Shown here one piece after another: positions 765-61,014 of a stretch of DNA of 64,000 nt. A program made the translations under genes and the position numbers. Origin of the DNA: Ilex aquifolium (Eukaryota > Streptophyta > Magnoliopsida > Aquifoliales > Aquifoliaceae); NCBI GenBank assembly GCA_951799425.1, contig OX637399.1, forward strand, positions 12,082,501-12,146,500, given 5' to 3'. Position 1 is the first letter of the stretch; each line of letters starts with the position of its first letter. The notes beneath the pieces are model-generated. The model was not told the origin of the DNA. It did not search any database and saw only the letters and a list, made by a program, of their open reading frames with translations.

Positions 765-3074
765 TGTAACGCCCCAAAAACCCCTTTGGGTGACATTACA
801 TTCTAAAAACCATTCACCGCATGAGAGCACTAAGTAAATCCATCACAACGAAAGTTTCATTCATTAACCATTAATATTTTAACAAAATTCGGGCAGAGTT
901 TCCTTTGCACGGGGAGCTCTACCCAAAACACAACCTGTACAATTATATTACAATTGACCACACCGGGTCCACATATGCATAACTATTGACCAAACCGGGT
1001 CCATTTATCCATCATAAAATAAACTTCCATTCACCATATATCATCCCAAAAGAATAGGCCAAGCAATGGCATTTACATTCCAAGAGAATTAAAGTACACT
1101 TGCAGCGGAATAACAAAATATTAGACTTTACATGATCTCCAAATAAACTCTCTAGTCTAGTACAAAAGAAGCTATATCTCTACATGTCCACCTTGGGATC
1201 TACACTCCCGTCGATCGGAGTCTCCCAATATGCGGGCTCCTCGACTTCCAATTCCTCCTCAAGTATATAATCTGAAAATGTTGGCGGTAGGGGGTGAGCA
1301 CGAAGCTCTGTAGAAAATTTCTCCCAAACCCAAACAAGGTTTAGAAAACATTTAAAATTCGGTCGGTCTCATTTTCACAAATATAGTATAGAACTTTTGA
1401 AGGAAAACAGGGCATTTAAATAGATCTCCAGTTTAAGGAACCACGGTAATTAAAAGAATAAATGAACACAAGATACCAATAAGAATCAATTCCCAAAACA
1501 TAATCCATCCCACCATACACCATTTCCACAAGTTCTTGTGGCATCCCATACTACCCCAAAACTCTTGCAGAAATCGTATTTGGTACAATGAACGATAACT
1601 CACACTTGAACATTTCCGGCAATATATGTACATGTATCTCAACAATGATGTAAGGCATCCACATGAATCGACACATTGAGTAACGTCTTGCCCACACCCA
1701 CACACACATCTTATCAAAGATATCCAACCTTTAGGAAGGGCGTGTACCATACCAATGGCAGTGACGAAATCCAACCCAGGCATTAGTATACTAACCCTCT
1801 TACACGGCACCACGTGAGCGATTGTGGTTTAGTCTTACCAAAGCACTAATCCCACTACGAATGGATTAGTCTTACCAAAGCACTAACCCATTCTACGACA
1901 TCTCGTCAAAGGACACCCATGGTCATCCCACACCCATTAGAGATACCACATCAAACCAATTTACCCAATTTATAAGCATATCTAAAAAAATCCCCAAATA
2001 TAGCATGCGACATTTTCAATAACCAACTAAGAAAAATGCAAGAGATCATTATAAACATCATTTGTTGCACAATATAAAACTATAAGTTTTGAAAGTGAAA
2101 ACCAAGGAATTACCAAGAGAAAAGTCCATTTTCCTTACAAATCAATGATTGAAGATGAAAAAGAAAGATAAAATGGTTACCAAACCATCACATGGTTCAA
2201 AACATGGCATTGATTGCAAAAATATAAAGAATCAAAGATTTCCCTAGCACATATCCAAGATTTAGAGAAAGAGACATATGTATATACATATATATATATA
2301 TATATAGCCCTAGCCTCAATGTGAGAGAGTGAGAGAAAACCCCTACCTCTTCCTTAGTTTGGTGTGAAGACCTTGAGGATTGATCTACTTTGAGGTGAGA
2401 ATCCCCTTCCTTCTTCCTCCCCCAAAGCTCTCTAGGGTTAGAAATGGGGAAAATGGGGTGAAGGAGGCGGTTTTGGTGTATTTAGAAAGCAAGAATTGGG
2501 GAAAATCGCGAACTGATCTGGGTATATATTAATGGTACCGTCCGGACGGTGCCTTGGACTTCCGGACGCTGGCAACTCTCTGTCCCAGCTTTCTGTCCCA
2601 ACTTCCAGAGCAGTTTTCACCTATTTAGAGGTCGAATTGGAAAATTTTAATGAGACACACTTTTGTAGCCCTAGATGTCTACTATCTACTGTAAAAATTT
2701 CAGATCAATTGGACTTAAGGATAAAACGTTATGGCCAAAATACTAAGCAGTGTCCAAAATCCTAAATTCCCAAATTTTCTCTAAAATGTGTTTTAACTCC
2801 AAAATACTTCCTAACTTCTAATACACCTCATATTACCTCTCCCAAAGTTTTTCGACCTTCCGGACTCAATGGAAACCTTATTTTAACCTAAATCCATTTA
2901 GAAACTTACTTAATCCCTCTTCTCAAGCTTACACACCTTCAAAACTTCAACTTCCAAATTAATTTGCATCTCTAGTTTTTTTATTCCTACCATCACTACA
3001 CATATCCACATTTTTACAACTATTATTTAATATATATCTATATACATATATAAACGAAAATGCGGGGTGTTACA
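765..3074 (-). repeat. 3' LTR of element A
   Basis: About 2.31 kb, nearly identical to 7813-10132. Visible differences include a 14-bp loss near 1043 relative to its partner and a different TA-repeat length near 2285-2307. Inside are two copies of the phrase around ACCAAAGCACTAA (1832-1890), a TATA-like run 2521-2531, and a leader-like stretch with CTCTCTAGGGTTAG near 2427. The 126-codon open frame at 1433-1813 is conserved only because the LTR copies are nearly identical; I see no protein family in it. Confidence 0.93.
2537..2570. promoter_or_regulatory. Palindrome doublet, TCCGGA class, 20-bp spacing
   Basis: Two TCCGGA cores at 2541-2546 and 2561-2566, the first inside CCGTCCGGACGG, a 12-bp perfect palindrome. 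Start-to-start distance is exactly 20 bp. In the minus-strand orientation of the LTR the doublet is just upstream of the TATA-like run at 2521-2531. Repeated at 9599-9624 in the other LTR. Confidence 0.7.
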
Positions 3075-3098
3075 ATCCACCCCCCTTAAAGAAAGTTT
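3075..3098 (-). promoter_or_regulatory. Polypurine tract of element A
   Basis: Read on the minus strand, a purine-rich run ending in AAGGGGGGTGGAT abuts the 3' LTR start (TGTAACACCCC). It follows the end of the pol frame (around GKFRGRNF), as is usual in Tekay/Del elements. It would prime plus-strand DNA synthesis. Confidence 0.85.
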
Positions 3099-3225
3099 CG
3101 TCCTCGAAACTTACCTCAAGTAGTGAACAAAAAGGGATACTTCTACCGCATTTGTTGCTCCGGTTCCCATGTAGTTTCCTCCTCTCCATGGGGTTGCCAC
3201 CAAACCTTCACTAGTCGGATGATTT
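3086..3225 (-). pseudogene. pol: Element A pol C-terminus: chromodomain remnant, distal part
   Basis: Minus-strand frame from 3220 reads a chromodomain-like tail with the motif LVKVWWQPHGEEETTWE, then meets TAG at 3145-3143 and TGA at 3118-3116, before a terminal GKFRGRNF motif that normally closes Tekay-type pol. Chromodomains in these elements are thought to steer integration to marked chromatin. The upstream half of the same frame lies at 5759-6052. The two were separated by insertion of solo LTR S1 with a 5-bp duplication, and the frame resumes exactly when S1 and one duplication copy are discounted. Two nonsense codons make it non-functional regardless of the insertion. Confidence 0.85.
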
Positions 3226-3603
3226 TGTAAAACCCGAGAAAATTTGAACTTTTGTGAAAAAGGGCAAAATGGTAAATTGCAACTATGGTACAGGTTGTAA
3301 ACCTGAAATTTTCTAGAACTTGGATGACGAAACAAACCTCACCATTGGATTCGTCTTGCGAAAACTAGTTACCCTGTCAAATTTCATTAAATTCCGAGTT
3401 AGTCGGATTTTTCGCGTTTTACGAGGCGATCGAGCCTCGGGAGACCAAAAAAACGAAATTCTGATTAAAATTTTAAATTTTTGGAAATAAATGACGGCAA
3501 GTTAAAATAAAAGTATTTTGAACTTGAACCGGAGCGAAAATTAATCGTTTCGGGGTTAAAACGGACCCGGGAAATAAGGACTGTGTGGCGCGTTGTGGGC
3601 CAA

Positions 3604-3613
3604 GTATTTAAAG
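3604..3613 (+). promoter_or_regulatory. Putative TATA box of solo LTR S1
   Basis: TATTTAAAGG about 380 bp into the LTR, followed by a pyrimidine-rich leader of the type expected of an LTR transcript. Sequence resemblance only. Confidence 0.45.
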
Positions 3614-5217
3614 GGTACTTAAAGGGGAGAAAATCAGATTTTCTCCCCATTTGTTAGCTCAGCCGATAACGTGAGAGGAAGAGAGGGAAAATCCAAAATC
3701 TCTCCACCTTCTCTCTACGATCTACGAAGATTGGGAGCTCCAATCCACTTGGGCCAAGAACAAAGGTTGTTCTACGCATCAAGGGCTACAAAACCATACC
3801 AAGAAAGGCGGGTTTCACCGAAGTTCCAAAAATCGAGCTTGGAGAAATCAAGGATTTTGGGCGAAATAGAGGTTCTTGAAGGTGTCCACCAAGTGGGTTT
3901 ACGCTTCAAGAGGTAGGGTTTCCTCCTACTAAGGTTTATTCCAAGCCTATAATGTTTTTATGGAATGGGTAGGATGATAGCCTATGTATCTCTTACCTAT
4001 TGTTGTGAAGTTGGGTGAATTGGGTATTGAAATGGGTAAAGGAAATCCTAGCTTGGATGGATATTTAGAAGTTACTAAATGTGATTTCTATGATTGGATA
4101 TGTGAAATGAACCCAATGTGAATTCATGTGTTATATGAAATTGTGGGCATGTTATGTGTTTATAAATATGCCTTGAAATTTTAGTATGTTGATAACATGC
4201 TTGAAATTTGTATTATGGGAATTATATGCTTTTGATATGATTTTGCCATGGAATATGAGGAATGTGTTGAGAATGTTCATATGTCACTCATATCATATCG
4301 AACATTGTATTAGTGTTGCAATGGAGCATCACATTGCATATGCACGGGAACATCGCATTTTTGGAGGTGTGTGTGCATGGTTGTTTGTCTTCACCACGCA
4401 TGGTGGATGATGAGTGAGCTCGGGTAATATGGGTCGATGACCTAGTCGAGTCGCATGGTTTATATGTTGATAGGGTTGGGGTAGCAAGAAGGGCTAGAAA
4501 ATCCCTCGGGTGAGAGACCCGGTGATTGGATACGCACTCCGTTGGTATAAGAGCCCATAAAGTGTGTCGGTGTACGCGGAACCGTTGGTGGAAGTCCATG
4601 AATTCCGTGTAGGTTGGGTGACCTTTGGTGTGAGTCCATGAACATCCACCCCTATATAGACCCTAGAATGAAAGGTCATTTGATGTGCAACATCAATGAC
4701 GGATTAGTACACATTGGCACTTGCATGTGTAGAGGAGCCGGGAAGGGCTCGGTTGATATGCATGAGTGGGTCTCACCTCATTCCATAGCATGGCATTGAA
4801 ATTTCCATCATTGAATATATTTCCTTGCTTAGAATGTTATGAATTGTGTTTTTGTGGCATGTGAACATTTCATATGCATATAGGTTGGGGAGTAGCCTCA
4901 TTAGGAGATACCCTATTGAGCGTGGCTCACCCTTTGTGGGAAAAACATTTCAGGTGCGGGGTTCACACCGGCGGACAGCTCCCATTTCGAGCCCCAAGGT
5001 TGAAGAAAGCCGACTTGTGGCTTTTATTGTTGTTTTGTAAAGCTTTTGAAAGAATTCCATTTTGATATGTAAATGTATGGAATCAATTGTAATAGAACTT
5101 GTATAAACCATGTTTTATATGGAAATCCTTGTCAAACATGTATTTGATGAATTGGGAAGGGTTTTGAATGGATTGGAAAGGAAAAATGGTTGAAAATGGC
5201 AAAACTGGGCAGAGAGT

Positions 5218-5475
5218 ACCGGTACTGGGTACCGGTACTGAATGGTACCGGTACTGGGTACCGGTACGGAATGGTACCGGTACTGGATACCGGTACCCTC
5301 TTTCCAGTGGGTTGACAGTACCGGTACCGGGTACCGGTACTGAATGGTACCGGTACTGGATACCGGTACCCCTTTTCCAGTGGGTTGACAGTACCGGTAC
5401 CGGGTACCGGTACTGAATGGTACCGGTACTGTGTATCGGTACTGAATGGTACCGATACTGGGTACCGGTACTCTC
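5218..5475. repeat. TACCGGTA palindrome array in S1
   Basis: About 14 copies of GTACCGGTAC-like palindromes, alternating spacings of 13 bp and 16 bp (29-bp period), for example cores at 5218, 5231, 5247 and 5260. A larger duplicated block is separated by CCAGTGGGTTGACAG. Because each unit is self-complementary, the whole array can pair with itself in DNA (cruciform) or RNA. A few cores carry single changes (ATCGGT, ACCGAT). Unlike most other clusters here it lies far downstream of the TATA-like sequence. Confidence 0.9.
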
Positions 5476-5758
5476 TTCAAAAATTTTCAGATTTTCACAC
5501 TGCTTCGCCCTATTTTCAATCTACGTTTCTTTTCCCTCCAATGATGTAAATGGACTATAATGGAGTATAAATCATGGTATATTGAATATTGGTTGAACCC
5601 AAATGAATAATCGAATCCGGTTAACAATTGTGAATTAAGATCCCGGTTAAGGGGATGCTACTACCGTGGTGTTAGGTTGAGTGACATCCATGAGTATTTC
5701 CGCGGGTTGACGGGTGGTCAACGGTCAATATAGGACCCCCGGAGATTGGGGCGTCACA

Positions 5759-7809: not shown

Positions 7810-7812
7810 TTC

Positions 7813-10132
7813 TGTAACGCCCCAAAAACCCCCTTGGGTGACATTACATTCTAAAAACCATTCACCGCATGAGAGCACTAAGTAAATCCATCACGACGAA
7901 AGTTTCATTCATTAACCATTAATATTTTAACAAAATTCGGGCAGAGTTTCCTTTGCACGGGGAGCTCTACCCAAAACACAACCTGTACAATTATATTACA
8001 ATTGACCACACCAGGTCCACATATGCATAACTATTGACCACACCGGGTCCATTTATCCATCATAAAATAAACTTCCATTCACCATATATCATATCCACAC
8101 TATCATCCCAAAAGAATAGGCCAAGCAATGGCATTTACATTCCAAGAGAATTAAAGTACACTTGCAGCGGAATAACAAAATATTAGACTTTACATGATCT
8201 CCAAATAAACTCTCTAGTCTAGTACAAAAGAAGCTATATCTCTACATGTCCACCTCAGGATCTACACTCCCGTCGATCGGAGTCTCCCAATATGCGGGCT
8301 CCTCGACTCCCAATTCCTCCTCAAGTATATAATCTGAAAATGTTAGCTGTAGGGGGTGAGCACGAAGCTCTGTAGAAAATTTCTCCCAAACCCAAACAAG
8401 GTTTAGAAAACATTTAAAATTCGGTCGGTCTCATTTTCACAAATATAGTATAGAACTTTTGAAGGAAAACAGGGCATTTAAATAGATCTCCAGTTTAAGG
8501 AACCACGGTAATTAAAAGAATAAATGAACACAAGATACCAATAAGAATCAATTCCCAAAACATAATCCATCCCACCATACACCATTTCCACAAGTTCTTG
8601 TGGCATCCCATACTACCCCAAAACTCTTGCAGAAATCGTATTTGGTACAATGAACGATAACTCACACTTGAACATTTTCGGCAATATATGTACATGTATC
8701 TCAACAATGATGTAAGGCATCCACATGAATCGACACATTGAGTAACGTCTTGCCCACACCCACACACACATCTTATCAAAGATATCCAACCTTTAGGAAG
8801 GGCGTGTACCATACCAATGGCAGTGACGAAATCCAACCCAGGCATTAGTATACTAACCCTCTTACACGGCACCACGTGAGCGATAGTGGTTTAGTCTTAC
8901 CAAAGCACTAATCCCACTACGAATGGATTAGTCTTACCAAAGCACTAACCCATTCTACGACATCTCGTCAAAGGACACCCATGGTCATCCCACACCCATT
9001 AGAGATACAACATCAAACCAATTTACCCAATTTATAAGCATATCTAAAAAAATCCCCAAATATAGCATGCGACATTTTCAATAACCAACTAAGAAAAATG
9101 CAAGAGATCATTATAAACATCATTTGTTGCACAATATAAAACTATAAGTTTTGAAAGTGAAAACCAAGGAATTACCAAGAGAAAAGTCCATTTTCCTTAC
9201 AAATCAATGATTGAAGATGAAAAAGAAAGATAAAATGGTTACCAAACCATCACATGGTTCAAAACATGGCATTGATTGCAAAAATATAAAGAATCAAAGA
9301 TTTCCCTAGCACATATCCAAGATTTAGAGAAAGAGACATATGTATATACATATATATATATATAGCCCTAGCCTCAATGTGAGAGAGTGAGAGAAAACCC
9401 CTACCTCTTCCTTAGTTTGGTGTGAAGACCTTGATGATTGATCTACTTTGAGGTGAGAATCCCCTTCCTTCTTCCTCCCCCAAAGCTCTCTAGGGTTAGA
9501 AATGGGGAAAATGGGGTGAAGGAGGCGGTTTTGGTGTATTTAGAAAGCAAGAATTGGGGAAAATCGTGAACTGATCTGGGTATATATTAATGGTACCGTC
9601 CGGACGGTGCCTTGGACGTCCGGACGCTGGCAACTCTCTGTCCCAGCTTTCTTTCCCAACTTCCAGAGCAGTTTTCACCTATTTAGAGGTCGAATTGGAA
9701 AAGTTTCATGAGACACACTTTTGTATCCCTAGATGTCTACTATCTACTGTAAAAATTTCAGATCAATTGGACTTAAGAATAAAAAGTTATGGCCAAAATA
9801 CTAAGCAGTGTCCAAAATCCTAAATTCCCAAATTTTCTCTAAAATGTGTTTTAACTCCAAAATACTTCCTAACTTCTAATACACCTCATATTACCTCTCC
9901 CAAAGTTTTTCGACCTTCCGGACTCAATGGAAACCTTATTTTAACCTAAATCCATTTAGAAACTTACTTAATCCCTCTTCTCAAGCTTACACACCTTCAA
10001 AACTTCAACTTCCAAATTAATTTGCATCTCTAGTTTTTTTATTCCTACCATCACTACACATATCCACATTTTTACAACTATTATTTAATATATATCTATA
10101 TACATATATAAACGAAAATGCGGGGTGTTACA
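7813..10132 (-). repeat. 5' LTR of element A
   Basis: About 2.32 kb, partner of 765-3074. Contains the same leader, TA run (9350-9363) and palindrome doublet (cores 9599-9604 and 9619-9624, again 20 bp apart). Ends at GGGGTGTTACA just before the second CCCAC. Confidence 0.93.
9595..9628. promoter_or_regulatory. Palindrome doublet, TCCGGA class (LTR copy 2)
   Basis: CCGTCCGGACGG and CGTCCGGACG with cores exactly 20 bp apart. The second palindrome is longer here (GTCCGGAC) than in the 3' LTR (TTCCGGAC). Confidence 0.7.
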
Positions 10133-10389
10133 CCCACCCATAACATAGCTTAGAACAAATAATATTTAAGTTCGGGAATCAAGAACAAAGGAGAAATCAA
10201 GAGAAAAACACATCTCCTTTGTAAACTAGGGTTTGAAGGCATAAAAAAAGATTTAGGGTTTACCCAAACATAATATATATTTTAGAACAAGGTAGTATTA
10301 TCCAGAATGGAAAGACATGATGATTCCCTAGCAATTAGATATAAATTAGAATCAAAGATTACATATAACTAAACCCTACTGGTATTCCC
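10133..10389 (-). other. Element B spacer between protease remnant and tandem repeat
   Basis: Target duplication CCCAC, a few ATCAAG-type units, and a segment around AAACTAGGGTTTGAAGGC that also occurs in diverged form at 710-750 and 6776-6800. No coding potential recognised. Confidence 0.6.
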
Positions 10390-11375: not shown

Positions 11376-11981
11376 TTTTGTAACGCCCCAAAACACACCC
11401 TGGACAGCATTACATTCTAAAACATTCATATCATGAGAGCACTAATATAATTCCATCAATAAGAAAATTTTTCCATTCATCATCCATAGAATTTACAAGA
11501 TCATCCCAAAAGAATAAGCCAAGCTATGACATTTACATCTCAAAAATTAATTAAAGTTGCACAGCGGAATAAACAAAAGAAACTAGACTACACAATGTTC
11601 CAAAAGAATGCTCTAGTCTAGTACAAAAGGGAATGAGGTAGCTCTATGCGTCCACCTCGGGATCCACACTCCCGTCAAGTGGAGTCTCCCAAGTAGCGGG
11701 CTCCTCGACCCTTACGTCCTCCTCAAGCAGGTAATCTGAAAAATGTTAGCGGTAGGGGGTGAGCACAAAGCTCTGTAGAAACATTCTCTCAAACCCAAAC
11801 AAGGTTTAGAAAAGCATTTAAAACGGTCGGTCTCATTTTTAACATAACATAGATACATAATTTGAAATAAAGCAGTGACATTTAAAAAGGATCTCAAGTT
11901 TATGTAAAAACATTACTTAAATGAATAAAAGAGTACCACATACAAATAATCACCATTAATTGCCATAAATCATTTCCAACA

Positions 11982-12738
11982 ATTCTTTCGGTAGGTGGCA
12001 TACTTTAGGGTAACCTCCACCCCCCATTCTTTCGGTAGGTGGCATACTTTAGGGCAACCTCCACCCTCATTCTTTCGGTAGGTGGCATACTTTAGGGTAA
12101 CCTCCACCCCCATTCTTTCGGTAGGTGGCATACTTTAGGGCAACCTCCACCCCCGTTAGATCATCTTTGCTTCCCAAGCATCCTTACAAGGAACCTCTTG
12201 GGAAGGGGTGAGCATCCTTACAAGGAACCTCTCACACTTCCTTTGGTAGGTGGCATACTTTAGGGCAACTTCCACCCCCGTTAGATCATCTTTTCTTCCC
12301 AAGCATCCTTACAAGGAACCTCTTGGGAAGGGGTGAGCATCCTTACAAGGAACCTCTCACACTTCTTTTGGTAGGTGGCATACTTTAGGGCAACCTCCAC
12401 CCCCGTTAGATCATCTTTGCTTCCCAAGCATCCTTACAAGGAACCTCTTGGGAAGGGGTGAGCATCCTTACAAGGAACCTCTCACACTTCTTTTGGTAGG
12501 TGGCATACTTTAGGGCAACCTCCACCCCCGTTAGATCATCTTTGCTTCCCAAGCATCCTTACAAGGAACCTCTTGGGAAGGGGTGAGCATCCTTACAAGG
12601 ACCCTCTCACACTTCTTTTGGTAGGTGGCATACTTTAGGGCAACCTCCACCCCCGTTAGATCATCTTTGCTTCACAAGCATCCTTACAAGGAACCTCTTG
12701 GGAAGGGGTGAGCATCCTTACAAGGAACCTCTCACTCA
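11982..12738. repeat. Two-stage tandem array inside the LTR of B (43 bp then 125 bp)
   Basis: Units beginning ATTCTTTCGGTAGGTGGCA start at 11982, 12026, 12069 and 12112 (43-44 bp each). They are followed by five units of exactly 125 bp whose GTTAGATCATC phrase starts at 12155, 12280, 12405, 12530 and 12655. Each 125-bp unit contains one 43-bp unit plus about 82 bp holding two copies of GCATCCTTACAAGGAACCTC and a CCCAAG...CTTGGG dyad. Units are almost identical, so expansion was recent. The LTRs of A lack it. Confidence 0.95.
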
Positions 12739-13310
12739 TGTGCATCACAAACAACTCAACCAATGCTTACAATTCCAATATTGATTTCAATTTACAATCA
12801 TCTATCCAAAAATCCCTCAAAATATATCATGTGATAATTCCACAACCAACAAAGAAAAATACATGAGATCACAATAACATCATTTTTCTACCCAACACAA
12901 AGCACTAAGGTTTTGAAAATCCATAATAAAGAAAGCATTTAAGAAGGAAATACATCACTCTCTAAAAATGAGGGTTTTAAAACTAGAGAAGAGACTTCAT
13001 GGGTATTAAACCCTAACTTTGTTCAAAACATGTAATATTTGCCAAAAAGCCTAAGATATGATGATTCCATAGCATATATATATACCATTGATAGCCAAAA
13101 CATACATATATAAATACCCTAGTCTCAATGTAAGTGAGTGAGAGAAAACCCCTACCTTGCTTCTTTAGTTTTTGAGTGAAGAAGATGAAGATTGGATCTT
13201 CTTCAATATGCAAATCTACCCTTGATCTTGTGTTTTCTCTTTCTTTCTTCCTCTCTAAACCTTTCTAGGGTTATAAATGTTGAAATGGGGCTTATAAGAG
13301 TGTCCTTAAG

Positions 13311-13320
13311 TATTTATAGG
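13311..13320 (-). promoter_or_regulatory. TATA box of the element B LTR
   Basis: Minus strand reads CCTATAAATACTTAAGG, about 50 bp downstream of the nearest TTCGAA palindrome. Leader-like sequence with AACCCTAGAAAGG follows. Confidence 0.7.
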
Positions 13321-13370
13321 GGAAGAATTGGCCTCCTGTGCGCGATTCTAAAGTTCAGAATTCGCAAGTC

Positions 13371-13550
13371 ACGTTCGAACGTCATTGGCGTTCGAACGTC
13401 ACTAGTGCAAATTATTGATTCACGTTCGAACGTCACTTTGGCTTTCGAACGTTGGTTGCTCCCAGTACTTTTGCATTTTCATCAGAGCTCTGCAGACACC
13501 AAAGTACTGGGACTCCCTCACGTTCGAACGTCGATTCACGTTCGAACGTC
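13371..13550. promoter_or_regulatory. TTCGAA palindrome cluster in the LTR of B (three doublets)
   Basis: ACGTTCGAACGT-type palindromes with cores at 13374/13391 (17 bp), 13425/13444 (19 bp) and 13523/13541 (18 bp). Between the second and third doublets lies an inverted repeat, CCCAGTACTTT (13461-13471) and AAAGTACTGGG (about 13501-13511), with TCATCAGAGCTCTGCAG in the loop. The cluster is upstream of the TATA box at 13311-13320 in minus-strand orientation. Confidence 0.8.
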
Positions 13551-13944
13551 ATCCCAGTTTCTGCTGAAACGTCCAGTGAAGTTTTGGCCTATTTAGAGAT
13601 TGATTTGGAAAATTTCCATGAAATACACTTTTGTAGCCCTGGATGTCTACTATCTACTGCCAAAATTTCAGATCAATTGGAAGTCAAGATAAAAAGTTAT
13701 GATCCAAACACTAAGGAAGTGTCTAAAATTCTTCTACCTAAAATATCTCTAAAAATGCGATTTCACTCCAAAATACTTCCAACTTCCTACGACATACACT
13801 ATTACCTCCACTAACCTTTTATTTCTACTCTTATCATCTACGTAGCTCATGCATACATCATTACATATATATTCGCATTTCAAAAACATAATTACGTTAC
13901 TATATATCTATATACATATATAAAAGAAAATGCGGGGTGTTACA

Positions 13945-16865: not shown

Positions 16866-16950
16866 TGAACCAGTTGACAAAGAGTTGAACCAATTGAAGA
16901 AGGTTATGTAATGTGATGAACCGGTTGAACATTTGTTCCAACCAGTTGAA
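16866..16950. promoter_or_regulatory. AACCGGTT-class palindrome doublets in the LTR of C
   Basis: Two doublets: GAACCAGTTGA (core 16869) with GAACCAATTGA (16889), 20 bp apart, and GAACCGGTTGA (16920) with CAACCAGTTGA (16941), 21 bp apart. Only one retains the central CpG; two read CAG and one CAA, as expected from deamination plus further change. Lies downstream of the putative TATA. Confidence 0.6.
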
Positions 16951-17836: not shown

Positions 17837-18575
17837 TGTAACGCCCCAAATACCACCCTGGACGGCAATACATTCTACAACCATTTATAACGTGAGAGCA
17901 CAAATAAAAATTCATAAATAACCGGGGGTCCTTAATTTTCACGAAATTTGGGCAGAGCCTCCTTTGTTCGGGGAGCTCTACCCAAAACACAACCTGTGCA
18001 TTTATAATACATCGACCACACCGGGTCCATTTATCCCTCAAATCTCTACAACGTTGCCCCAAAAGATTTTCCATTCACCACATGTAATATTCACAATAAC
18101 ATTCTCCAAAATAATAAGTCAAGTCATGGCCACAATATCAAAAGAATATGTCCAACAATGGCCTTTACATTTCCAAATGAATTGAACTAAGATAACGCAA
18201 CGGAATACAAAATACTAGACTTTACATGACTTCCAAAATAATTTATCAAGTCTAGTACAAAATAAATGACATCTCTATATGTCCCACTCGGGATCCACGT
18301 ATCCCTCTAAGGAAGCTTCTCCTTGGCCCGGCTCATGAGCATCGAGCTCCTCCTCTAGAGTAAAATCTGAAAATATTCAACGGTAGGGGGTGAGCACGAA
18401 GCTCTGTAGAAAAATCCTCTCAATCCCAAACAAGGTTTAGAAAAGTATATAAAACGGTCGGTCTCATTTTACAAATAACATATATAGCATTTCAAGTAAA
18501 ACATGACATTTTAAGTAGATCTCCAGTTTAAGCTATAATCATGATCTAGTGAAAAGTTAATGTAAATTGCATAAC

Positions 18576-20093: not shown

Positions 20094-20125
<32 letters not shown>

Positions 20126-23919: not shown

Positions 23920-24130
23920 TGATTAACCCTAAAAAGTGTGGTAAATAAATTAGGGCTTAGGGTTAATTATGTGCATTAATTAATTTAAAGTGTTTAATTT
24001 AGATTATATTATGAATAATTTTTGAAATATATATTTTGTAGGGTTTCATATGTAATAAGGAAGAATTGGAGGGCTAAAGTGCAAAGAAGAAGAAAATAGA
24101 AAAAGACAAAGGAAAAAATAGCATTGAGGC

Positions 24131-33962: not shown

Positions 33963-33984
33963 CTTCTGTTCCGGACTAGTTTTC

Positions 33985-40445: not shown

Positions 40446-40596
40446 CGGAATACTAAAAGAATAAAAATACTATAAAAAGAAAGAAGATAAATAATAATAA
40501 TAATAATAACAATGCAGCAAGCTAAAAGAAGGAACGAAGTTATCGCTTTTGCAAACTGTTGAAAAGAAAAACTATCTAACAATTCTTCTACCGTCT

Positions 40597-40618
40597 CCCC
40601 GACAACGGTGTCAAAATT
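40597..40618 (-). promoter_or_regulatory. Primer binding site of element I
   Basis: Minus strand AATTTTGACACCGTTGTCGG next to the LTR end: a mutated form of the TTTTGGCGCCGTTGCCGGGG primer site typical of Athila/Tat elements. Confidence 0.8.
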
Positions 40619-42315: not shown

Positions 42316-42615
42316 CGTTCGAACGTCAATGTCGTTCGAACGTGTGTAGAAGGATTTTTAAAAGATCGTTCGAACGTGATTGTCGTTCGAATGTGGCTAG
42401 CTCCCTGTACTTTTGAGTTCTGTCAGAGACTAGAGGACTGCAAGGTCTTCTCGTTCGAACAATCTATTAGCGTTCGAACGTTAACTCTCGTTGGAACGTT
42501 CTATTGGCGTTCGAACGGGCTGAGCTCCCAGTACTTTTGAGTTTCATCAGGAGCTTCATCAGAGGTTGAGTACTGCAAGCAGCTGACGTTCGAAAGTTAC
42601 TTAACGTTCGAACGT
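42316..42615. promoter_or_regulatory. TTCGAA palindrome cluster between pol and third ORF of H (five doublets)
   Basis: Cores at 42318/42335 (17), 42369/42386 (17), 42454/42473 (19), 42491/42510 (19, first core TTGGAA) and 42589/42607 (18). Same class as in the LTRs of H. The spacers at 42404 and 42528 (CTCCCAGTACTTTTG and a TCATCAGGAGCT stretch) match the spacer of the element B LTR cluster at 13459. Confidence 0.8.
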
Positions 42616-43828: not shown

Positions 43829-45142
43829 TTATAAAGGCGCCCTAGTGGGTCGGGTTGGGTTAGATTTTTCCTGACCCGATCCAATTGAGTGTCGGCAGAC
43901 ACGAATCTCGGATGAGTATTCTGGTTCCATTAAAAAAATGGTTTCCACATTTTTAACAAAGTCCTCCAAAAATGGTTTCAACCGCTGACCATTAACAGTA
44001 AAGATATTACCGTTCGATGGGTTTTCCACTTCAACTGCTCCATGTCCAAACACCTTTTTGACAATGTAAGGCCCAGTCCATCTTGACTTCAACTTACCAG
44101 GAAAGAGGCGGAGTCTTGAATTAAATAACAGGATTTTTTGAGAAGGCTCAAAAGATTTCCGCACAATATTCTTGTCTTGAAAAATTTTCATCTTGGTTTT
44201 AGCAATCTTAGCATTCTCATATGCTTCATTTCTCAATTCCTCCAATTCATTTATCTGAAGTTTCCTTGCTAGTCCAGCCTTGTTCAGGTTAAAATTCATT
44301 GCTTCAATGGCCCAATATGCCATATGTTCCAATTCCACAAGTAGGTGACACGACTTTCCATAGACTAATCGATAAGGAGACATGCCCAAAATTGTTTTAA
44401 AAGCAGTGCGATATGCCCAGAGTGCATTAGTTAGTCTTAACGACCAATCTTTGTGGTCTGGATTCACCGTTTTTTCTAAAATTAATTTGATCTCCCGATT
44501 AGCTAGTTCAGCATGTCCACTGGTCTGTGGGTGATAAGGGGTTGCAATTTTGTGAAAGATCAAGTATTTTTTCATCAAATTCCAGAAGGGACGATTACAA
44601 AAATGAGCACCCCCATCACTTATGATTGATTTCGCAATTCCAAACCGGGACAAAATATTTTCTTTTAAAAACTTGATCACTGTTCGGTGATCATTGTTTC
44701 GGCATGGAATTGCCTCAACCCATTTAGATACATAGTCTACAACCACTAAAATGTATAGATAGCCAAAGGAAGGGGGAAACGGTCCCATAAAATCGATGTC
44801 CCAACAGTCAAAAATTTCTATTACCAGAATGGGGTTTAAGGGCATCATGTTTCTTTTAGAAATACTTCCCAACCTTTGGCATCTATCGCAAGTTAAACAA
44901 AAGGCATAGACATCTTTGAAAAGTGTGGGTCAGTAAAATCCACACTGTAATATTTTTGCAGCGATTTTTCTTGATGAAAAATGGCCACCGCATGCTTCAG
45001 AATGACAAAATATTATTACCTGCCTGCTTTTATGAGCGGGGATGCAACGCCTTATGATTTGATCCTTACAGTACTTGAATACGTAGGGATCCTCCCAAAA
45101 GAAGTTACGAACCTCCCTTAGAAATTTCTTTTTGTCCATCAT
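43829..45142 (-). pseudogene. pol: Element H integrase
   Basis: Minus strand, one frame. The zinc-binding N-terminus reads CIPAHKSRQVIIFCHSEACG and, beyond a TGA that replaces a Trp codon near 44930, CLTCDRC. The core reads [18 protein letters not shown] (first Asp), IISDGGAHF (second Asp) and [17 protein letters not shown] (catalytic Glu), so the triad is intact. The C-terminal domain reads [20 protein letters not shown] and NGQRLKPF, with the stop at 43829. The 347-residue stretch 43829-44872 is the longest undamaged integrase segment in the window. Confidence 0.93.
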
Positions 45143-46469
45143 GGTAAAGGACGGGGGGAACGTACCAGTAGCAAGGAAGTTAGCAATATCCGCACCATGG
45201 TGTCATATCAATCATGAACAGTTGTTCATCGGGGAATTTCTCATTGATTGGCAGTCCATCTTCACGAAATTCATATGTTAATCTGGACAAATGATCTGTC
45301 ACCACATTCTCGACACATTTCTTGTCTTTGATGACAAGATCAAACTCTTGGAGCAAGAGTATCCATCTCAAGAGTCTTGGCTTGGCGTCCTTCTTTGTGA
45401 GCAAGAATTTTAGGGCTGCATGGTCAGTGAATACAGTAATAGAAGAACCAACAAGATAAGAACGAAATTTTTCCAGGACAAAAACTACAGCAAACAATTC
45501 TTTTTCAGTTGTTGAATAATTCATTTGAGCATCATTCAAAGTTTTGCTTGCATAGTAAATCACATAGGGTTTCTTATCCTTTCTATGTCCCAACACAGCA
45601 CCTACAGCATAATCACTTGCATCACACATTAGTTCAAATGGTAGAGTCCAGTCAGGGGGTTGCATTATTGGAGCAGAAATTAATATACCTTTAAGCTTTT
45701 CAAAAGCTTTCTGGCATGCTTCATTCCACAAAAAAATTACGTTCTGACTCAGAAGATGACACATGGGTTTGGCTATGGTACTGAAATCTTTTATGAATCT
45801 TCTGTAAAAACCTACATGTCCTAGGAATGATCGGACATCCTTTACAATCTTAGATGCGGGCAAATTTCCAATCAAATCTATTTTTGCCTTGTCAACTTTC
45901 ATGCCCTCAGACGACACAATGTGACCAAGTACAATGCCTTGCATTACCATGAAATGACATTTTTCCCAATTGAGCACTAGGTTGGCTTTTCTACACCTTA
46001 TCAACACCTTTTCTAGGTTGGCTAGACATGAATCAAATGAGTCACCATAAACAGAGAAGTCATCCATGAATACTTCCAAAAAAATTTCAACTATGTCACT
46101 GAACAAGCTTAGCATACATCTTTGGAATGTTGCAGGAGCGTTACAAAGTCCAAATGATATCCTTTTGAATGCAAAGGTTCCAAAGGGGCATGTGAATGTT
46201 GTTTTCTCCTGATCATTTAGTGCTATCTCAATTTGATTGTACCTAGAATATCCATCTAGGAAACAGTAGAATGTATGGCCTGCAATTCTTTCTAGGACTT
46301 GGTCAAGAAATGGAAGAGGAAAATGGTCTTTTCTAGTGACCAAATTGAGTTTTCGATAGTCAATACACATTCGTCATCCTGTGACAACTCGAGTTGGTAC
46401 TAGTTCATTTGCATCATTTTTTACCACTGTGACCCCAGACTTTTTGGGCACAACTTGGGTTGGATTAAC
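45143..46469 (-). pseudogene. pol: Element H reverse transcriptase and RNase H
   Basis: Minus strand. 396 uninterrupted codons (46370-45180) cover RT motifs [48 protein letters not shown] and the catalytic FMDDFSVYG, then the RNase H motifs [39 protein letters not shown] and [18 protein letters not shown]. The N-terminal RT segment was cut off by solo LTR J at 46469 and resumes at 48339. A frame change near 45150-45180 separates it from integrase. Closest in the window to element I, but clearly a different family. Confidence 0.93.
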
Positions 46470-46929
46470 TGATGAGCACATAATATTGCATATTTGAAGG
46501 GCTCATTACATGCATTTTAACTCAACTTTTGCATTTAAGTACTTAGAGTTAGCCGAAATTATGAATAATGTTGATATTTTGATGTTGCAAGTTTTTATTG
46601 CTTAAATCATGTATTTTAGGACATTGCAACTATGTTGGATGTGTGGTGAAGGCATGGACACAATACATAAAGAATTGGAGGCTTAAAAGTGAAGAAATCA
46701 AGAAGGCATTGGTGCTTGGGAACAAGGGCACCAGCTGCAGCAACAATTGGAAGCACTGCCTCGGAATTCCTCCATTTTGACCATGATCTACTCATAAGTT
46801 AGAAAATTTCAAAACATGAAAGTTGTAGATATAGGTGTCTTATGTTTGGTTTCAAAATTTCAGCCCAATCCAACGGTTAGATCAAGAGTTATGTCGATTC
46901 TACCGAAGGTGGTCCAGTGTAGAAAAACA

Positions 46930-46983
46930 GTACCGGTACTCGGTACCGGTACCAAATGGTACCGGTACCTAGTACCGGTACTC
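46930..46983. promoter_or_regulatory. ACCGGT palindrome cluster in J
   Basis: Cores at 46932/46945 (13 bp), 46961 (16 bp on) and 46974 (13 bp), the same 13/16 alternation as in S1. About 290 bp upstream of the TATA-like sequence. Confidence 0.8.
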
Positions 46984-47272
46984 CGGACCTTCTGGTCGTG
47001 AAAACAGCCTGTAACTCAACTTTGAGGCTTGGGGGTCCCACCTACACTTCTCCCACGCCTATCCCAACATTTCCTTACACATTTGCAGGCCTCCTACACT
47101 CAAGTGGAAGACTTTGAAGGCCAATGCATTGATGGAGGATGGGAGAGAAGTGGGCTGCCAGGGCTATGATCTCCTAGCCTGTCAAGCCATCCATTCAGCC
47201 CTCTCTTGATGGAAGCTCGTACACACAGCTAGGGGGGAGCCTCTTGGACGTTTTGGCAAGTCTCCACACACC

Positions 47273-47282
47273 ATTATATTCA
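47273..47282 (+). promoter_or_regulatory. Putative TATA box of J
   Basis: CATTATATTCAGCATT; the equivalent in J' reads CATATATTCAGCATT on the minus strand. Confidence 0.5.
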
Positions 47283-48338
47283 GCATTACACACACATTGT
47301 ATTGGTTAGTTGGCTACCTAAGCTTAGGATTAGATATAGAAAGCTCCAAGGGGGAAGATGATGAATAGTGCTCAAAGTGACGTTTTTGCATTTTTCTTCC
47401 ACTCTTTCACTTGTAGTTTAATGTAAGAACCTTGTAAGTTTCATTTATTGTCTTTAATGTCATTCCTTTCAAGTTTATTGCAAGTTTAATTTCATGTTCT
47501 TCATTTCACCATTGTTATTTAAGTTTTCTTCATTTCAAGCTTTTATATTGGGTATTGCATATTTTTCCTTCATAGCTTTAGATTTCTTGTTGTAAGTTAA
47601 GTTTCATGCTCCATTTCCCTTCCATGTCCATTTCCTTTATGCTTGTCTTGCATTGTTAATATGAGTAGCTAGGATTTAAGTTGGTTAATCCAAGGGAAAA
47701 TTCCTCTTGGGAATACCATTTTCAACTCTTCTTCATTCCTCCCTTTAGAGTCAAATGGTTCGGTTTGACGGGGTTGAGAGTGGATGAGTTGGTGAGCCTT
47801 TGATATTCCGTAGGCCTAGTCACGGTTTATGCTTAGATACTCACCAATCTCGTCCCTAGCTTCCCCCGAATCAATCGTTCATTCATGCTCAATCGGAGGA
47901 AGGCTTTGAGTTGATTTGGTATTCCCATTGGAATGAACCCTTTGAATTAGCCAACACTTGCTTTATTTGCATTTTCATTTACAAACCAAACACAAAACTC
48001 AAACAAAAGATTTTACATTTTCTTTTCACTTTTGCAAAATCACTTTCACAAAACTCCCTTTCCTTCCCTGAGGAGACGACCTTGGAATACTCTTCCAAGT
48101 AAAACACTGACAACGAAAGACTCCTTGCGATTGGGGAGCACTTTTGTTCACCACACACGCATTCCATTTCATAAAATTTTGTTCATTCCATTCATTTCCA
48201 TCACCATTCCATTGTTGCCTAATCTTTTGCATCATTCCGAGTGAGAGTGACACTCACCCATTCCTATAAGTCATACACACATTTAGGGATGATGTTTAGA
48301 GGTTAGGATACAACAACGTTTTTCAATCAATCATTAAC

Positions 48339-51080: not shown

Positions 51081-52351
51081 TGGCTTGATCCGAAATGTGT
51101 ACACCCAAGTGCAAGCGGTCAAGCTGTAGTAATAATCCGGTTTGAGTCCGGAGTCGAATCCACAGGGAACTCTTCTTGGTGTTTTGGGGTAAGCAGTGGT
51201 GGAGACCTATTGATTATAACCCTTGAGATTTGAAGTTGTGTGAGGTGTGAGATTTCCTGGACAGAATATAGGATTCTTTCCAAGAGAATTTTCTAAACAA
51301 AATATGAGATAAGCTCTAATGTAAAAGAGTCACTCTTTAGTTCAAGGATCTGGACATGTAGTTAATTATCCGGTTTATTACACTTGTGCTTGATAACTCA
51401 ATTAACCCCCGTGTCAACAGCAGGTTAATCGGAAGATAAAGGTGGATTAAGAGAATTAAGAACATGATTCCGATGTCTTTCTAAAAGTTTACAAGAATTG
51501 TTTGTGCCGAGACTTAACCCGTCTACAAACAAGCAAGTATTTCTACAAGACATCCAATCATGACATCAATGTTCCATTTCCATTCTTTAATTGAAGCACA
51601 ATAATGGTGAAGATTGATGGGTAGTCATGAAGATCTAGCCGGGGTACTTGTCTTGAACCAATGAGTCTTTCTATACAAGAGTTATCTATGTTACAGAAAG
51701 AACTCCTGGTTATACAAAGTACCTTAGTTTTGCTAGATGCAATCAATCATTCAATAAGCATGGGGAATATAAAACATTAAGCATAATCGAAATTGCACAA
51801 ACATAACGTCTGGATAATTTATACATGCCCTTCTCCTCTTACTAAAGAGTGAATGAGAAACTACTCACTCTTCATGGCTTTGGTAAAGCTAGAAAAGTGA
51901 GTGATGCTTATTCCTCCAAGTAGAGGGGTCACAAAGCAAAGCAGACTAAACAGGGAGCCGATCTTTGACAAAGAATGAGTGAATCACGTTCCACCCTTCA
52001 CGGCTTTGGCGAAGCTCTAGAAAAGTGGAAGAGTTTCACTCCTCTAAGGGAAGAAAGAAGCTCAAGCAATGGAAGTGAATGAAGCACAAATTAAAAATAG
52101 AAGAAAGGTAGTCACTTTTGGAGGGTGATCCACAACCAAAGGTGATCTATCTCCCTCTATGCATGTAGATGAAAGCATAAGCATAAAACTAATTTTATAA
52201 CAAGCTAAGAGATGTTGGACTAAAGTCAAACTAATCTCTAGAACAACTACTTCATACAAGGAAATGTAAGCTAATTCTACAATATGAGTGGGATTCCAAG
52301 CCTCCATCAACCTCTCTAACTAAGTCCCCCCTGAGCTCTCCAACAATGGGA

Positions 52352-52361
52352 GTATTTATAG
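52352..52361 (-). promoter_or_regulatory. TATA box in the 5' LTR of H
   Basis: GCCTATAAATACTCCC on the minus strand; this copy would drive genomic RNA of H. Confidence 0.7.
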
Positions 52362-52453
52362 GCAAGAGGAGGAGACAAGAAGGGGTGAAGGAATAGTGTA
52401 TGCCGCCCAAGTCCAAGTGAAAAACCAACTACTCTGCAGTCAATCTGTGGAGA

Positions 52454-52843
52454 ACGTTCGAACGGGTAAGTTGGCGTTCGAACGTTGTATCTGTTTTTCC
52501 TTTATGGGCGTTCAAACGTTGTCTGACGTTCGAACGTTTCTTCTATCTTTGTTGTATGGGCGTTCGAACGCCAGATGTGGTCTGACCTTCTCACTCAAGT
52601 GGTCTGTGGTCTTCTGTGGAAACCTATTTCCACACTCCATGCATATCTTGACGCTTTGCACTCATCATTCTGGTCCTCAATCAATTCAAGTGGACGTTCG
52701 AACGTGAGTTGGCGTTCGAACGTGATACTCAAGTGCCTCAGAGCCTCAGAGTCTTCTTTCTTGGCTGCAACACGTCTTCTCTCAGCAGTCAGGTCTGCTC
52801 ACAGTTCAAGTGGACGTTTGAACGTGAGTTGGCGTTCGAACGT
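52454..52843. promoter_or_regulatory. TTCGAA palindrome cluster, 5' LTR of H
   Basis: Cores at 52457/52477 (20), 52511/52529 (18, first TTCAAA), 52563 (single, in GGCGTTCGAACGCC), 52697/52715 (18) and 52817/52835 (18, first TTTGAA). Confidence 0.8.
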
Positions 52844-53025
52844 TCTTGGTGTGCTCCAAGCTTCTCCAATTTTGTTCCCTAATGTGCAGGTGTTACACTC
52901 ATATGTGATATTCGTTGTTCTTGAGTCCTTGTTCACTTTAAGACCCGAAATGTCATCACTTAAACTCCATCAAAGTACAATTAGTCCCAAAAAGGCATAG
53001 TAAAATGCTAATTTAGTACTAATCA

Positions 53026-58854: not shown

Positions 58855-60294
58855 TGTATTTAATTAAGAAAGGACTTAATTATTACATGGATTGAAAGTC
58901 TATATTTTAGGTCTATATGTTTAAGTAGAACAAGAGAAATATTATCTTGACTCCAAGATGGATTAAAACTTCATATCGATGAAGAACCAGTAAACATAAG
59001 TCAAATTGAATTTTATATCTTACTTTGAGTTCAACCTAGACTGTAATTTCATGTTTATTATGGAATAATAAATAAATAAAAATTATTAAATAAATAAATT
59101 ATAACTAAATCATTTTGTTTAGATCAAAATACAAATTGAGACCCATTTGCATATTTATAAAATATTAAATACACAAATAAATCTCGAGGGGGCATTTATA
59201 GATATTAAAAAATTAACAAATAAAATAATATTTATTAGTGGACCCAAATATAGTAAGTTTCTAAATTAAATTGTTATGGACCTAAATTTCATAAGCCCAA
59301 ATAAGACAAGTTCAAATCTAATTAAAGTGGCTTAAGCTGGACCTAAATTTCATAAGCCCAAATAAGACAAGTTCAAATCTAATTAAAGTGGCTTGAGCTG
59401 GACCTAAATTCCATGAGCCAAAATAATAGAAGTTCAAATTTAATTAAATTGGTTTTGACTTAAATTTCATAAATCCAAATTAAAAAGACTTTTAAAGGTA
59501 AATTGGGTGGGACTTAAATTCCATAAATCAACTAAAGCACATAAATTTATATAAAAATAGGTGGCTCACTACTTAAGCCCATATGAGGGTATTCGGATAA
59601 AATACTCTTATATGGATAACTACTCCCAACACTATAAATAAAGGTTTGAGAGAGACCAAGGAAAGAAAGCCAAAAAGGAAGGCCAAGAGGAGAGAAGGAG
59701 GAGGGAAGATCAAGAACCACTGACCAAGTCCATCTCAGGAGGAAAAGGAAAATCAACAGCGAAACTCTGTCAAAGTCTACCTCCACTTGAAGTCTTGCAA
59801 ATCCATCTCTGAGGAGGAGAAACACCGCCAAGGTCTTTCTTCAAGAGATTCAAATCATCTTCAAGTTATTCAACACGAAGAACAGTGAGAAGATCCAACA
59901 AAGCCATTATCAAATTGAAGAACAATATCCAAGTTAGTCCAACCTTTTTCTTCAACAAATCCACTAAATCAAAAATCGAAGACCAAGGATCACACTGATC
60001 AAGCCCTCGTCTTCACCAAATCCACCAAAGTATCCCCAAATGGAAGATTGAGAAACACGCTGAACAAGCTCTCATCTTCATCAAATTCGTCAAAGCCACC
60101 ACCAAATCAAAGTTCGAGAATCACGCTGATCAAGCCCTCATCATCATCAAATCTATTGAGAATTAGAGGACAGTGTACGTGAGAAGCACGCTGAAGAGAG
60201 TCAACACTACTTTCTATTCAAAATTCAAGTCATCAATAATTGTAATTTTCATCTTACTTTTGTGTTAATATTACACACAAAATTTGTCCTTACA
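58855..60294 (+). repeat. Probable 3' LTR of element F (left boundary uncertain)
   Basis: A TATA box, CACTATAAATAAAGG, lies at 59632-59640, followed by a purine-rich leader (GAGAGAGACCAAGG) and a tandem stretch of about 60 bp (59935-60160, TCACGCTGATCAAGCCCTC-like). It ends TTGTCCTTACA at 60294, immediately before K, so 60294 is the right end of F. The start at about 58855 (TGTATTTAATTAAG) is a guess; no clear purine tract precedes it. A direct repeat of about 60 bp lies at 59330-59400. Confidence 0.5.
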
Positions 60295-60677
60295 GTAGGA
60301 TGAGCAAAAAATCCAATAGAGAAACCTTCTCAAACCCAACAAGATTTTGGAAACATAAAACATGTAACTCTCATTTTACAAAAAAATATGTAAGGATTTG
60401 AATTAAAACAGTGAAAATTGAGAAGATCTTAAGTTTATGGTAAACACAATAAAATTCATGAATAAATAAGATCACAACTCTTAAGCCACATATAGTAACA
60501 CAGTCAACATATATGTCATGTACATTTACAAGTTGGCTAACATGAATCCACACATTGAAAATATCTTGGCCCACACATAACACACCCAATCAATACTATA
60601 ATCCTCACAAGGATGACCCATTTTTAAGAAGCGTGTATACCAACACATCAACATTGACGTAACTTCGTAGGATTAGT
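60295..60677 (-). repeat. LTR fragment K, host of F and L
   Basis: Diverged match to part of the element A LTR (about 1290-1790): GTAGGATGAGCA, CTTCTCAAACCCAACAAGAT, ATCCACACATTGAAAATATC and AAGAAGCGTGTATACCAACAC correspond in order. Cut on the left by the end of F (GTAGG at 60295-60299 would be its target copy) and on the right by L. It is the oldest layer seen. Confidence 0.75.
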
Positions 60678-60889
60678 TGATTAACCCTAGAAAGTGCGTT
60701 AGTGAATTAGGTTTTATAGTTAATGGTGTGTGTTAGTTTGTTTAAAGTGTTTGATTTAAATTATATTATGCCTAATGTTTGAATAATATGTTTTTGTAGG
60801 GACATGTATGCAATTAGGGAGAATTGGAGGATTAAAGTGCAAGAAAGAACAAAAAGAGGAAAACAAAAAGGAAAATCCAGCAACAAGGC

Positions 60890-61014
60890 ACCATCCGGAT
60901 GGTACAACCATCATCCCAACAGTGGCCAAGGGTTGAAAATTCAACAAAGTTAGCTTTAATGCAAATTCCAGAGACTTAGTGCCATCTGGACGGTGGTGGT
61001 GGCGTCCGGAAGGT
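60890..61014. promoter_or_regulatory. TCCGGA-class palindrome doublets in L
   Basis: ACCATCCGGATGGT, a 14-bp perfect palindrome (core 60894), with a degenerate partner TCCCAA at 60914; and ATCTGGAC (60985) with GTCCGGAA (61005). Both pairs exactly 20 bp apart, about 100 bp upstream of the TATA box. Confidence 0.75.

Follow-up and report, generated by a model that had tools for sequence, protein, structure and literature searches.

Why do retrotransposons whose long terminal repeats (LTRs) are otherwise unrelated carry clusters of the same short palindromes? This question is raised by a 64,000-nucleotide stretch of Ilex aquifolium DNA (contig OX637399.1, positions 12,082,501 to 12,146,500; hereafter the window), in which a first-pass annotation had described doublets of CpG-centred palindromes in Tekay-like and Athila-like elements and had read them either as a dimer-binding operator system with interchangeable specificities or as an RNA/DNA pairing signal. 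We found that Athila-like elements have an extra gene coding for a PF20167 ('Transposase_32') protein, and that this gene is preceded by a further array, which belongs to the class of the array in the LTR. We propose, at what we regard as an even chance on the sequence evidence, that Athila-like elements encode a dimeric PF20167 DNA-binding regulator of their own LTR and their own gene, and that other elements capture its operators.

Palindrome arrays and their spacing

All clusters named by the first-pass annotation are present in a palindrome listing and in the displayed sequence, and the observation is confirmed and larger than first stated. The window holds 18 TCCGGA, 26 ACCGGT and 35 TTCGAA cores, and CG-centred palindromes lie far above 50 dinucleotide shuffles, with 77 8-mers against a shuffle mean of 22.6 (maximum 34), 56 10-mers against 6.1 (maximum 13) and 26 12-mers against 1.6 (maximum 4). 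AT- and TA-centred 10-mers are likewise above shuffle (52 vs 28.7 and 54 vs 24.0), the commonest being (AT)n runs, as are GC-centred 10-mers (20 vs 10.8, shuffle maximum 18). The true units are longer than the 6-mers given at first, namely CGTTCGAACG/ACGTTCGAACGT, GTACCGGTAC and CGTCCGGACG, and although the main classes are indeed centred on CpG, CGCCTAGGCG and GATGAATTCATC represent classes without such a centre.

A positional genome sample (20 stretches of 10 kb at round positions, L009-L028, 200 kb in total) contained further ACCGGT and TTCGAA arrays, together with additional arrays of CTACCGGTAG and GATGAATTCATC. In this sample, palindromes made up 2.7% of clustered 10-mer pairs vs 0.16% of 10-mer occurrences, an over-representation of about 17-fold. 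The most clustered non-palindromic 10-mers there were AGTTGGAACC/AAAAAAGTTG words. The GATGAATTCATC array of L015 (3349-3480), of a non-CpG class, has spacings of 55 and 18 and a repeated 'cttggttgcacaaaccagtct' spacer, and L026 (1-9180) is a tandem repeat carrying the palindromes AAGAATTCTT, CATTGCAATG and CAATATATTG.

Start-to-start spacing is class-bound and mostly independent of the spacer sequence. Among window neighbours at most 60 bp apart, GTTCGAAC gave spacings of 34 (five times), 18 (four), 17 (two), 19, 20, 37 and 52 bp, TACCGGTA gave 13 (ten), 16 (five), 31 (three), 29, 32 and 42 bp, and exact TCCGGA gave 20 bp twice; when decayed units are allowed, G (24129/24149) and L (60888/60908 and 60979/60999) are 20-bp doublets too. 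AACCRRTT words at 16868, 16888, 16919 and 16940 are spaced 20, 31 and 21 bp. Genome-wide searches for doublets, whose listings cover contig C1, returned 4200 forward and 4252 reverse matches for the TTCGAA pattern (at many places on both strands), 5064 and 5246 for ACCGGT, and 3271 for CGTCCGGACG, vs none in the respective reversed controls. With gaps of N2-12 permitted (11 gap lengths), 88 of the 100 TTCGAA rows listed had N=7 and 12 had N=6, corresponding to spacings of 18 and 17; with 12-18 permitted, every ACCGGT row among the matches listed was at 13 or 16; and with 14-44 permitted (31 values), the 50 CGTCCGGACG places listed were at 23 (32), 41 (8), 42 (6), 20 (3) and 24 (1). In the stretches analysed, 45 distinct TTCGAA pairs were spaced 18 (30), 17 (9), 19 (5) or 20 bp (1), a range kept across at least 30 different spacers, and 38 of 39 ACCGGT pairs stood at 13 or 16. 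The tie between core and spacing described from the window therefore extends genome-wide for TTCGAA (17/18) and ACCGGT (13/16), whereas TCCGGA falls into two spacing subclasses, 20 and 23. Fixed spacing holds with many different spacers; some spacings were inherited with homologous cassettes.

Such arrays could in principle be a neutral by-product, if tandem duplication and recombination had spread chance palindromes and spacing merely reflected shared descent. In line with this, the S1 arrays consist of tandem repeats whose spacers recur, several cassettes are homologous (see below), and CpG-type transitions are frequent in the palindromes. We nevertheless consider this explanation very improbable, given the 17-fold over-representation and the constancy of the TTCGAA spacing. 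Moreover, in H LTR copies that had not been selected by motif (H5, L015 and L027), transversions numbered 0/210 at palindrome sites, 54/780 in spacers and 12/315 in flanks. Total divergence did not differ significantly, and the palindrome changes in these rows were transitions only, a pattern that fits CpG decay after insertion, as expected. Also contrary to neutral spread, the arrays of the H LTRs and of the H internal region agree in class and in spacing, yet no pair of them reached the reporting level of a spacer homology test in which palindromes were masked and flanks cut off (153 comparisons, 200 shuffles each).

Promoters, internal arrays and the PF20167 gene

On the element's strand, the arrays of B, G, H3, H5 and L lie upstream of CTATAAAT. 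S1 has TATAAAT about 100 bp past its array, the box of A and D is less clear, and a canonical TATA was not found in the stretch scanned for E and J. The internal arrays of L034, L037-L039 and L051 are followed by a TATA-like word 13-15 bp past the last core; behind the window copy of the H internal array, no canonical TATA box was found.

This location bears on the pairing alternative, in which doublets would form hairpins or cruciforms (a 10-12 bp stem with a 3-8 nt loop at spacings of 13-20) that act in RNA dimerisation or as small-RNA targets or triggers. In the main classes the spacing does correspond to a stem plus a short loop, and for maize Sireviruses an excess of small RNAs over the palindrome clusters is reported (Bousios 2016, as cited in PMC10760457). 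However, a hairpin does not require palindromy of each single unit, and complementarity of the outer doublet flanks was not above shuffle (92 vs 104.5 and 97 vs 97.6) and so lends the pairing idea no support. Small-RNA sensitivity may also be a cost rather than a function. Where the arrays lie upstream of TATA, full-length RNA would hold only the 3' LTR copy plus the internal array, which likewise counts against pairing, and we consider it improbable.

The combination of an internal array and an extra gene was first seen in H (TTCGAA), where the array lies downstream of the integrase and before a gene apparently interrupted by element I, and in a relative of the E family (ACCGGT). On C1 there are at least six TTCGAA LTR-internal-LTR triplets (near 12.99, 15.16, 18.20, 20.61, 20.79 and 20.84 Mb); among the matches listed, 3.4-3.7 kb separate the internal array from the closer of the two LTR arrays. 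Four triplet internal arrays were fetched (L034 and L037-L039, the latter three stretches also containing the LTR array), and all four have PF20167 coding sequence downstream. L039 has a 372-codon open frame with the entire PF20167 domain (E 1.6e-22, 80.7 bits; curated cut-off, 45 bits), L038 scores 82.5 bits, and the piece in L037 reaches 33 bits, below the cut-off, the frames of L037 and L038 being broken.

The same layout was seen in L040 and L041, each with a GTACCGGTAC internal array, a PF20167-like open reading frame and an LTR array of the same class, the gene assignment resting here on tblastn alone (E 3e-3 to 3e-9 depending on the query). This gene is 23-26% identical to that of L039, and the L041 protein is 74% like that of L040. 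In L041 the LTR and internal arrays are both spaced 13, 31, 13; the LTR part of L040 matches E at 72-75%, and the L041 LTR matches E in the array alone. A third candidate place for an ACCGGT internal array, L042, proved to be an E-type LTR without a PF20167 match and was rejected. At least four CGTCCGGACG triplets were recognised on C1 by position only (near 3.22, 8.85, 9.55 and 10.51 Mb); among the matches listed, their internal array lies 3.2-3.4 kb from the nearer LTR, and LTR and internal spacers differ. LTR and internal array thus agree in class in H and L040/L041; for the elements with TCCGGA at 23 bp this agreement is seen by position only. The PF20167 protein has a basic N-terminal part, with a likely coiled coil in the copies read by eye (L039 and L040); in L040 a basic stretch, the likely coiled coil and an acidic tail were noted.

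Were PF20167 the reader of the palindromes, a separate PF20167 group would be expected for TCCGGA. A genome search for PF20167 yielded 6661 candidates, of which 150 were scored, all above the cut-off, and 12 of these were chosen across the range of scores and frame lengths, with about 1.5 kb upstream fetched for each. The prediction held: upstream of the gene, L051 has seven CGTCCGGACG units and one near unit in 23-bp doublets, with CTATAAATAG just downstream, and L052 has a CCGTCCGGACGG doublet with one decayed unit at 20 bp, as in the LTRs of A, G and L. In five other cases (L043, L045, L046, L048 and L053) CGCCTAGGCG stood upstream, and in L044 CAGCGCTG. The ATCGAT words in AT-rich sequence upstream of L050 and L054 were not counted as convincing, no repeated palindrome was found in the roughly 1.5 kb upstream of L047, and L049 has merely two distant 8-mers there. 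An automatic rule, which asks for two or more occurrences of a given 10-bp palindrome in a stretch, flagged 8 of the 12 upstream stretches, L050 and L054 included, vs 20 of 120 control stretches; of these 20, six come from the single tandem repeat of L026, and another eight are themselves arrays of the type under study.

The CGCCTAGGCG units lie 53-122 bp apart, with AGCGCT words alongside in at least three of the five stretches (L043, L045 and L053), and form a putative operator class of their own within the PF20167 group that is largest in the sample.

The PF20167 groups, which are 17-48% identical to one another, largely follow the palindrome class. In the PF20167 tree, the TTCGAA (4), ACCGGT (2) and ATCGAT (2) rows form one clade each, all five CCTAGG rows belong to a single group with full support that also contains L044 (AGCGCT) and L047 (none), and the two TCCGGA rows (20 and 23 bp) are separate, L051 being nearest the TTCGAA clade. 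The class labels require eight changes, the minimum possible and a count as low as none of 200 shuffles gave, in a statistic where several labels are single rows and near-copies help to keep the count low.

The same data may be read in terms of host dimeric transcription factors, with LTR and internal promoters converging on or exchanging their sites and PF20167 as a passenger (an env-like, nuclear or particle protein). We hold this main rival to be less likely. It suits the promoter position of the arrays, and the resemblance of TCCGGA to sites of plant LOB-domain proteins counts in its favour. It is also in keeping with Sireviruses, for whose motifs mainly stress-related recognition sites were recovered (PMC2829016), and with Grande, where an internal accessory-gene promoter is known (PMC7264820). 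The TCCGGA core precedes two distant PF20167 groups, which also speaks for host factors. Linkage of array and gene alone could explain the match of group and class, because linked partners are expected to match under simple co-inheritance as well; the match is necessary but not sufficient. What argues against host factors is that at least four convincing classes largely track the PF20167 groups, that the class can be replaced wholesale at one LTR site (see below), and that, among the matches listed, the first 7-9 Mb of C1 contain few or no ACCGGT and TTCGAA arrays whereas TCCGGA is present there.

Cassette exchange and the proposed regulator

One LTR type is common to A1, A2, B, D, L013 and L015, and its homologous site carries arrays of four classes, TCCGGA, TTCGAA, ACCGGT or CTACCGGTAG. 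The 210 bp adjoining the array are 82-89% identical between classes (A1/A2, 98%; D/L015, of the same class, 97%), whereas on the 240-bp array side identity between classes is 56-68% (D/L015, 79%). When the array side was shuffled (means 52-63, maxima 55-69), the best shuffle was not surpassed by 8 of the 13 between-class pairs, and the remaining five exceeded it by 1-5 points. S1-type LTRs vary likewise, carrying GTACC (S1 and L027), GCTACCGGTAGC (L013), CGTACCGGTACG (L011) or TTCTACCGGTAGAA (L025). These comparisons indicate that whole putative operator cassettes are swapped at one A-type LTR site.

The masked-spacer test revealed homology across LTR types. The B LTR array resembles the H internal array of the window, L038 and L039 (scores 25-30 vs shuffle maxima of 16-19; 0/200), the A-type LTR array of L015 resembles the L040/L041 arrays (21 vs a shuffle score of 10 against the L040 internal array; 0/200), and the S1-type array of L013 resembles the A-type array of the same stretch (0/200 shuffles as good); in L040/L041 the internal and LTR cassettes are themselves homologous. 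Given this homology, unrelated LTRs share arrays, at least in these cases, through cassette transfer, with a presumed direction, and such transfer is plausible since recombination between distant Athila families is documented (PMC2410132). The claim that unrelated elements share classes is therefore true, but in the cases tested successfully the sharing stems from homologous cassettes, not from convergence.

In the mechanism that we propose, the clusters would be operators, that is, promoter-proximal arrays of dyad-symmetric sites for dimeric sequence-specific regulators, and in Athila-like elements the regulator would be the product of the extra gene, which lies downstream of integrase, ahead of the 3' LTR, and has an array of the LTR's class in front of it. 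The PF20167 protein would activate, or shield from silencing, its own gene and the LTR promoter, creating a self-reinforcing switch, and divergence of the PF20167 groups in specificity would have produced the TTCGAA, ACCGGT, TCCGGA (20 or 23 bp) and CCTAGG/AGCGCT classes. Recombination or template switching would bring operator cassettes into the A-type and S1-type (Tekay-like) LTRs, which within the proposal would account for the different classes at one homologous LTR site. A PF20167-type extra gene was not seen for A-type and S1-type elements, and these may exploit regulators made by other elements, as parasites. Binding, dimerisation, activation or anti-silencing, and parasitism are steps that we infer. 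A dimer-operator system with interchangeable specificities, as first suggested, fits the spacing, the TATA position, the class swaps and the PF20167 candidate better than its rivals do, with binding itself a prediction. To the fuller version, in which PF20167 dimers diverge fast, each recognising a palindrome and spacing of its own in the LTR and in its internal promoter, and unrelated LTRs pirate these switches by cassette swaps, we give somewhat less than an even chance.

Palindromes upstream of promoters are known from Sireviruses (PMC2829016), whose RM boxes are element-specific, CpG-rich and present in many copies per LTR upstream of the TATA, with extra copies upstream of ENV, between pol and the 3' LTR, and none in ENV-less elements; a common factor for them was not identified in that paper. 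The present arrays are alike in clustering upstream of the TATA in B, G, H3, H5 and L (not E and J) and, as an analogue, the gene here not being ENV, in lying ahead of the PF20167 gene, both in the window and in L034, L037-L041 and L051. Unlike Sireviruses, which are Ty1/copia elements with integrase before reverse transcriptase, the elements here have the Ty3/gypsy order, and their palindromes are different. As to the CGG-CCG core of Sireviruses, ACCGGT and TCCGGA hold CCGG but not the CGG...CCG order, and TTCGAA and CCTAGG have neither. A PF20167 gene, a class that largely tracks the protein group, cassette swaps among unrelated LTRs and fixed doublet spacing further set them apart.

The VANC proteins of Arabidopsis VANDAL transposons (PMC5735166, PMC10398659), which the first-pass annotation invoked, are element-encoded and pair with family-specific motif clusters in non-coding regions, the motifs changing through tandem repeats. 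VANC6 motifs also occur in the unrelated element AT9TSD1 (PMC5735166), the motif YAGTATTAY forms one-orientation arrays, and binding and methylation loss have been demonstrated for VANC (PMC5735166, PMC10398659). The analogy is apt in outline, but VANDALs are DNA transposons with motifs in one orientation, whereas here palindromic units, known from sequence alone, sit in LTR retrotransposons; the LTRs and the gag, reverse transcriptase and integrase domains show that these are not Mutator-type DNA transposons. By the features tested, the present system is neither that of Sireviruses nor that of VANDALs, and it may work like either. Foamy viruses encode an accessory DNA-binding activator, Tas/Bel1, which has an internal promoter and acts on that promoter and on the LTR; this is an analogy of working only, and no sequence relation is claimed.

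A 3' extra open reading frame of a sunflower Athila has partial similarity to Transposase_32 (PF20167) and a nuclear localisation signal, and its product is predicted to be nuclear (PMC11728184); the text available describes no promoter array and contains neither 'palindrom' nor 'DNA-binding'. Maize Grande, likewise Ty3/gypsy, has an accessory gene, gene23, close to its 3' LTR, which is driven by a promoter of its own and encodes a nuclear protein, but unlike the PF20167 gene it is antisense, and the portion of the paper available mentions no matching array (PMC7264820). LTR arrays matched to PF20167-gene arrays were unreported in the titles and abstracts searched, a coverage with most subscription journals outside it.

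If true, the proposal would assign a function to PF20167, an orphan domain annotated as 'putative plant transposon protein', and would supply a binding factor for a type of LTR palindrome that was described in 2010 without one. It would explain promoter motifs common to unrelated retrotransposons and would provide plant DNA-binding modules in sets, together with their operators. In the fuller version, retrotransposon families would be joined as drivers and hitch-hikers in regulatory networks, with an arms race over operator specificity that resembles that of viral transactivators but takes place inside a genome. It becomes directly testable whether LTR retrotransposons of plants produce transcriptional activators or anti-silencing factors of their own.

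Layout of the window

The features of the window are collected in Table 1. On the minus strand of H, reverse transcriptase/RNase H (46373-45183) comes before integrase (44929-43832), which is the Ty3/gypsy order; the Athila-like label of H stands for this order plus the 3' extra open reading frame. The scanned frames of the A element contain RVP_2, zinc knuckle and SH3_Tf2-1 domains, and no chromodomain was seen in those frames. Element I probably sits inside the H extra gene; it does not belong to the palindrome system.

Table 1 Elements, arrays and genes in the window (PBS, primer-binding site; PPT, polypurine tract; TSD, target-site duplication)
Feature	Position	Strand	Basis or remark
A LTR (chromovirus/Tekay-like), CCGTCCGGACGG-type doublet 2541-2566, spacing 20	771..3076	-	PBS and PPT by eye
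Second A LTR, doublet 9599-9624	7812..10133	-	98.2% identical to first A LTR
S1 LTR, GTACCGGTAC array 5218-5469 (13/16)	3226..5757	+	orientation via PBS/PPT of homologous L013 element
B LTR (A-type family), ACGTTCGAACGT array 13374-13546, TATA CTATAAAT 13312-13319	11379..13943	-	display, self-comparison
AACCRRTT set in the putative C LTR of the first-pass annotation, one intact AACCGGTT and three variants	16868..16947	.	motif scan
D LTR (A-type family), GTACCGGTAC array 20516-20607	18574..21115	-	display, self-comparison
G LTR array, CCACCRTCCGGAYGGTGG-like units 24129, 24149, 24220; CTATAAAT downstream at 24363	24129..24237	+	
H 3' LTR (Athila-like), ACGTTCGAACGT array 27004-27353, TATA CTATAAAT 26905-26912	25650..27541	-	
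H extra gene piece, PF20167 domain	29599..30114	-	E 1.7e-8, 35 bits (below cut-off of 45)
Element I, LTRs 30112-31489 and 40619-41989	30112..41989	-	
E, LTR without partner, GTACCGGTAC units 33909, 33941	32560..34420	-	candidate TSD ATCCA (by eye)
H internal TTCGAA array, upstream (minus strand) of extra gene	42318..42612	-	same layout in L034, L037-L039
H integrase (rve)	43832..44929	-	domain scan
H reverse transcriptase and RNase H	45183..46373	-	domain scan
J, LTR without partner, GTACCGGTAC array 46932-46979 (13, 16, 13)	46471..48337	+	candidate TSD TTAAC (by eye)
H 5' LTR, TTCGAA array 52453-52840, TATA CTATAAAT 52354-52361	51081..53025	-	
L LTR array, CCATCCGGATGG-like units 20 bp apart; CTATAAAT downstream at 61111	60888..61016	+	

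The B LTR also contains a 125-bp tandem repeat (11988-12862) with copies up to 98% alike. Within its array (13460-13515), TCCCAGTACTTT and AAAGTACTGGGA stand between doublets as the two arms of an inverted repeat, and a CCCAGTACTTTTG word recurs in the H internal array. Outside the window, L013 (1657-8921) holds a short element with 3-kb S1-type LTRs around about 1.2 kb of internal sequence, with PBS and PPT present and CTACCGGTAG arrays, which is likely non-autonomous.

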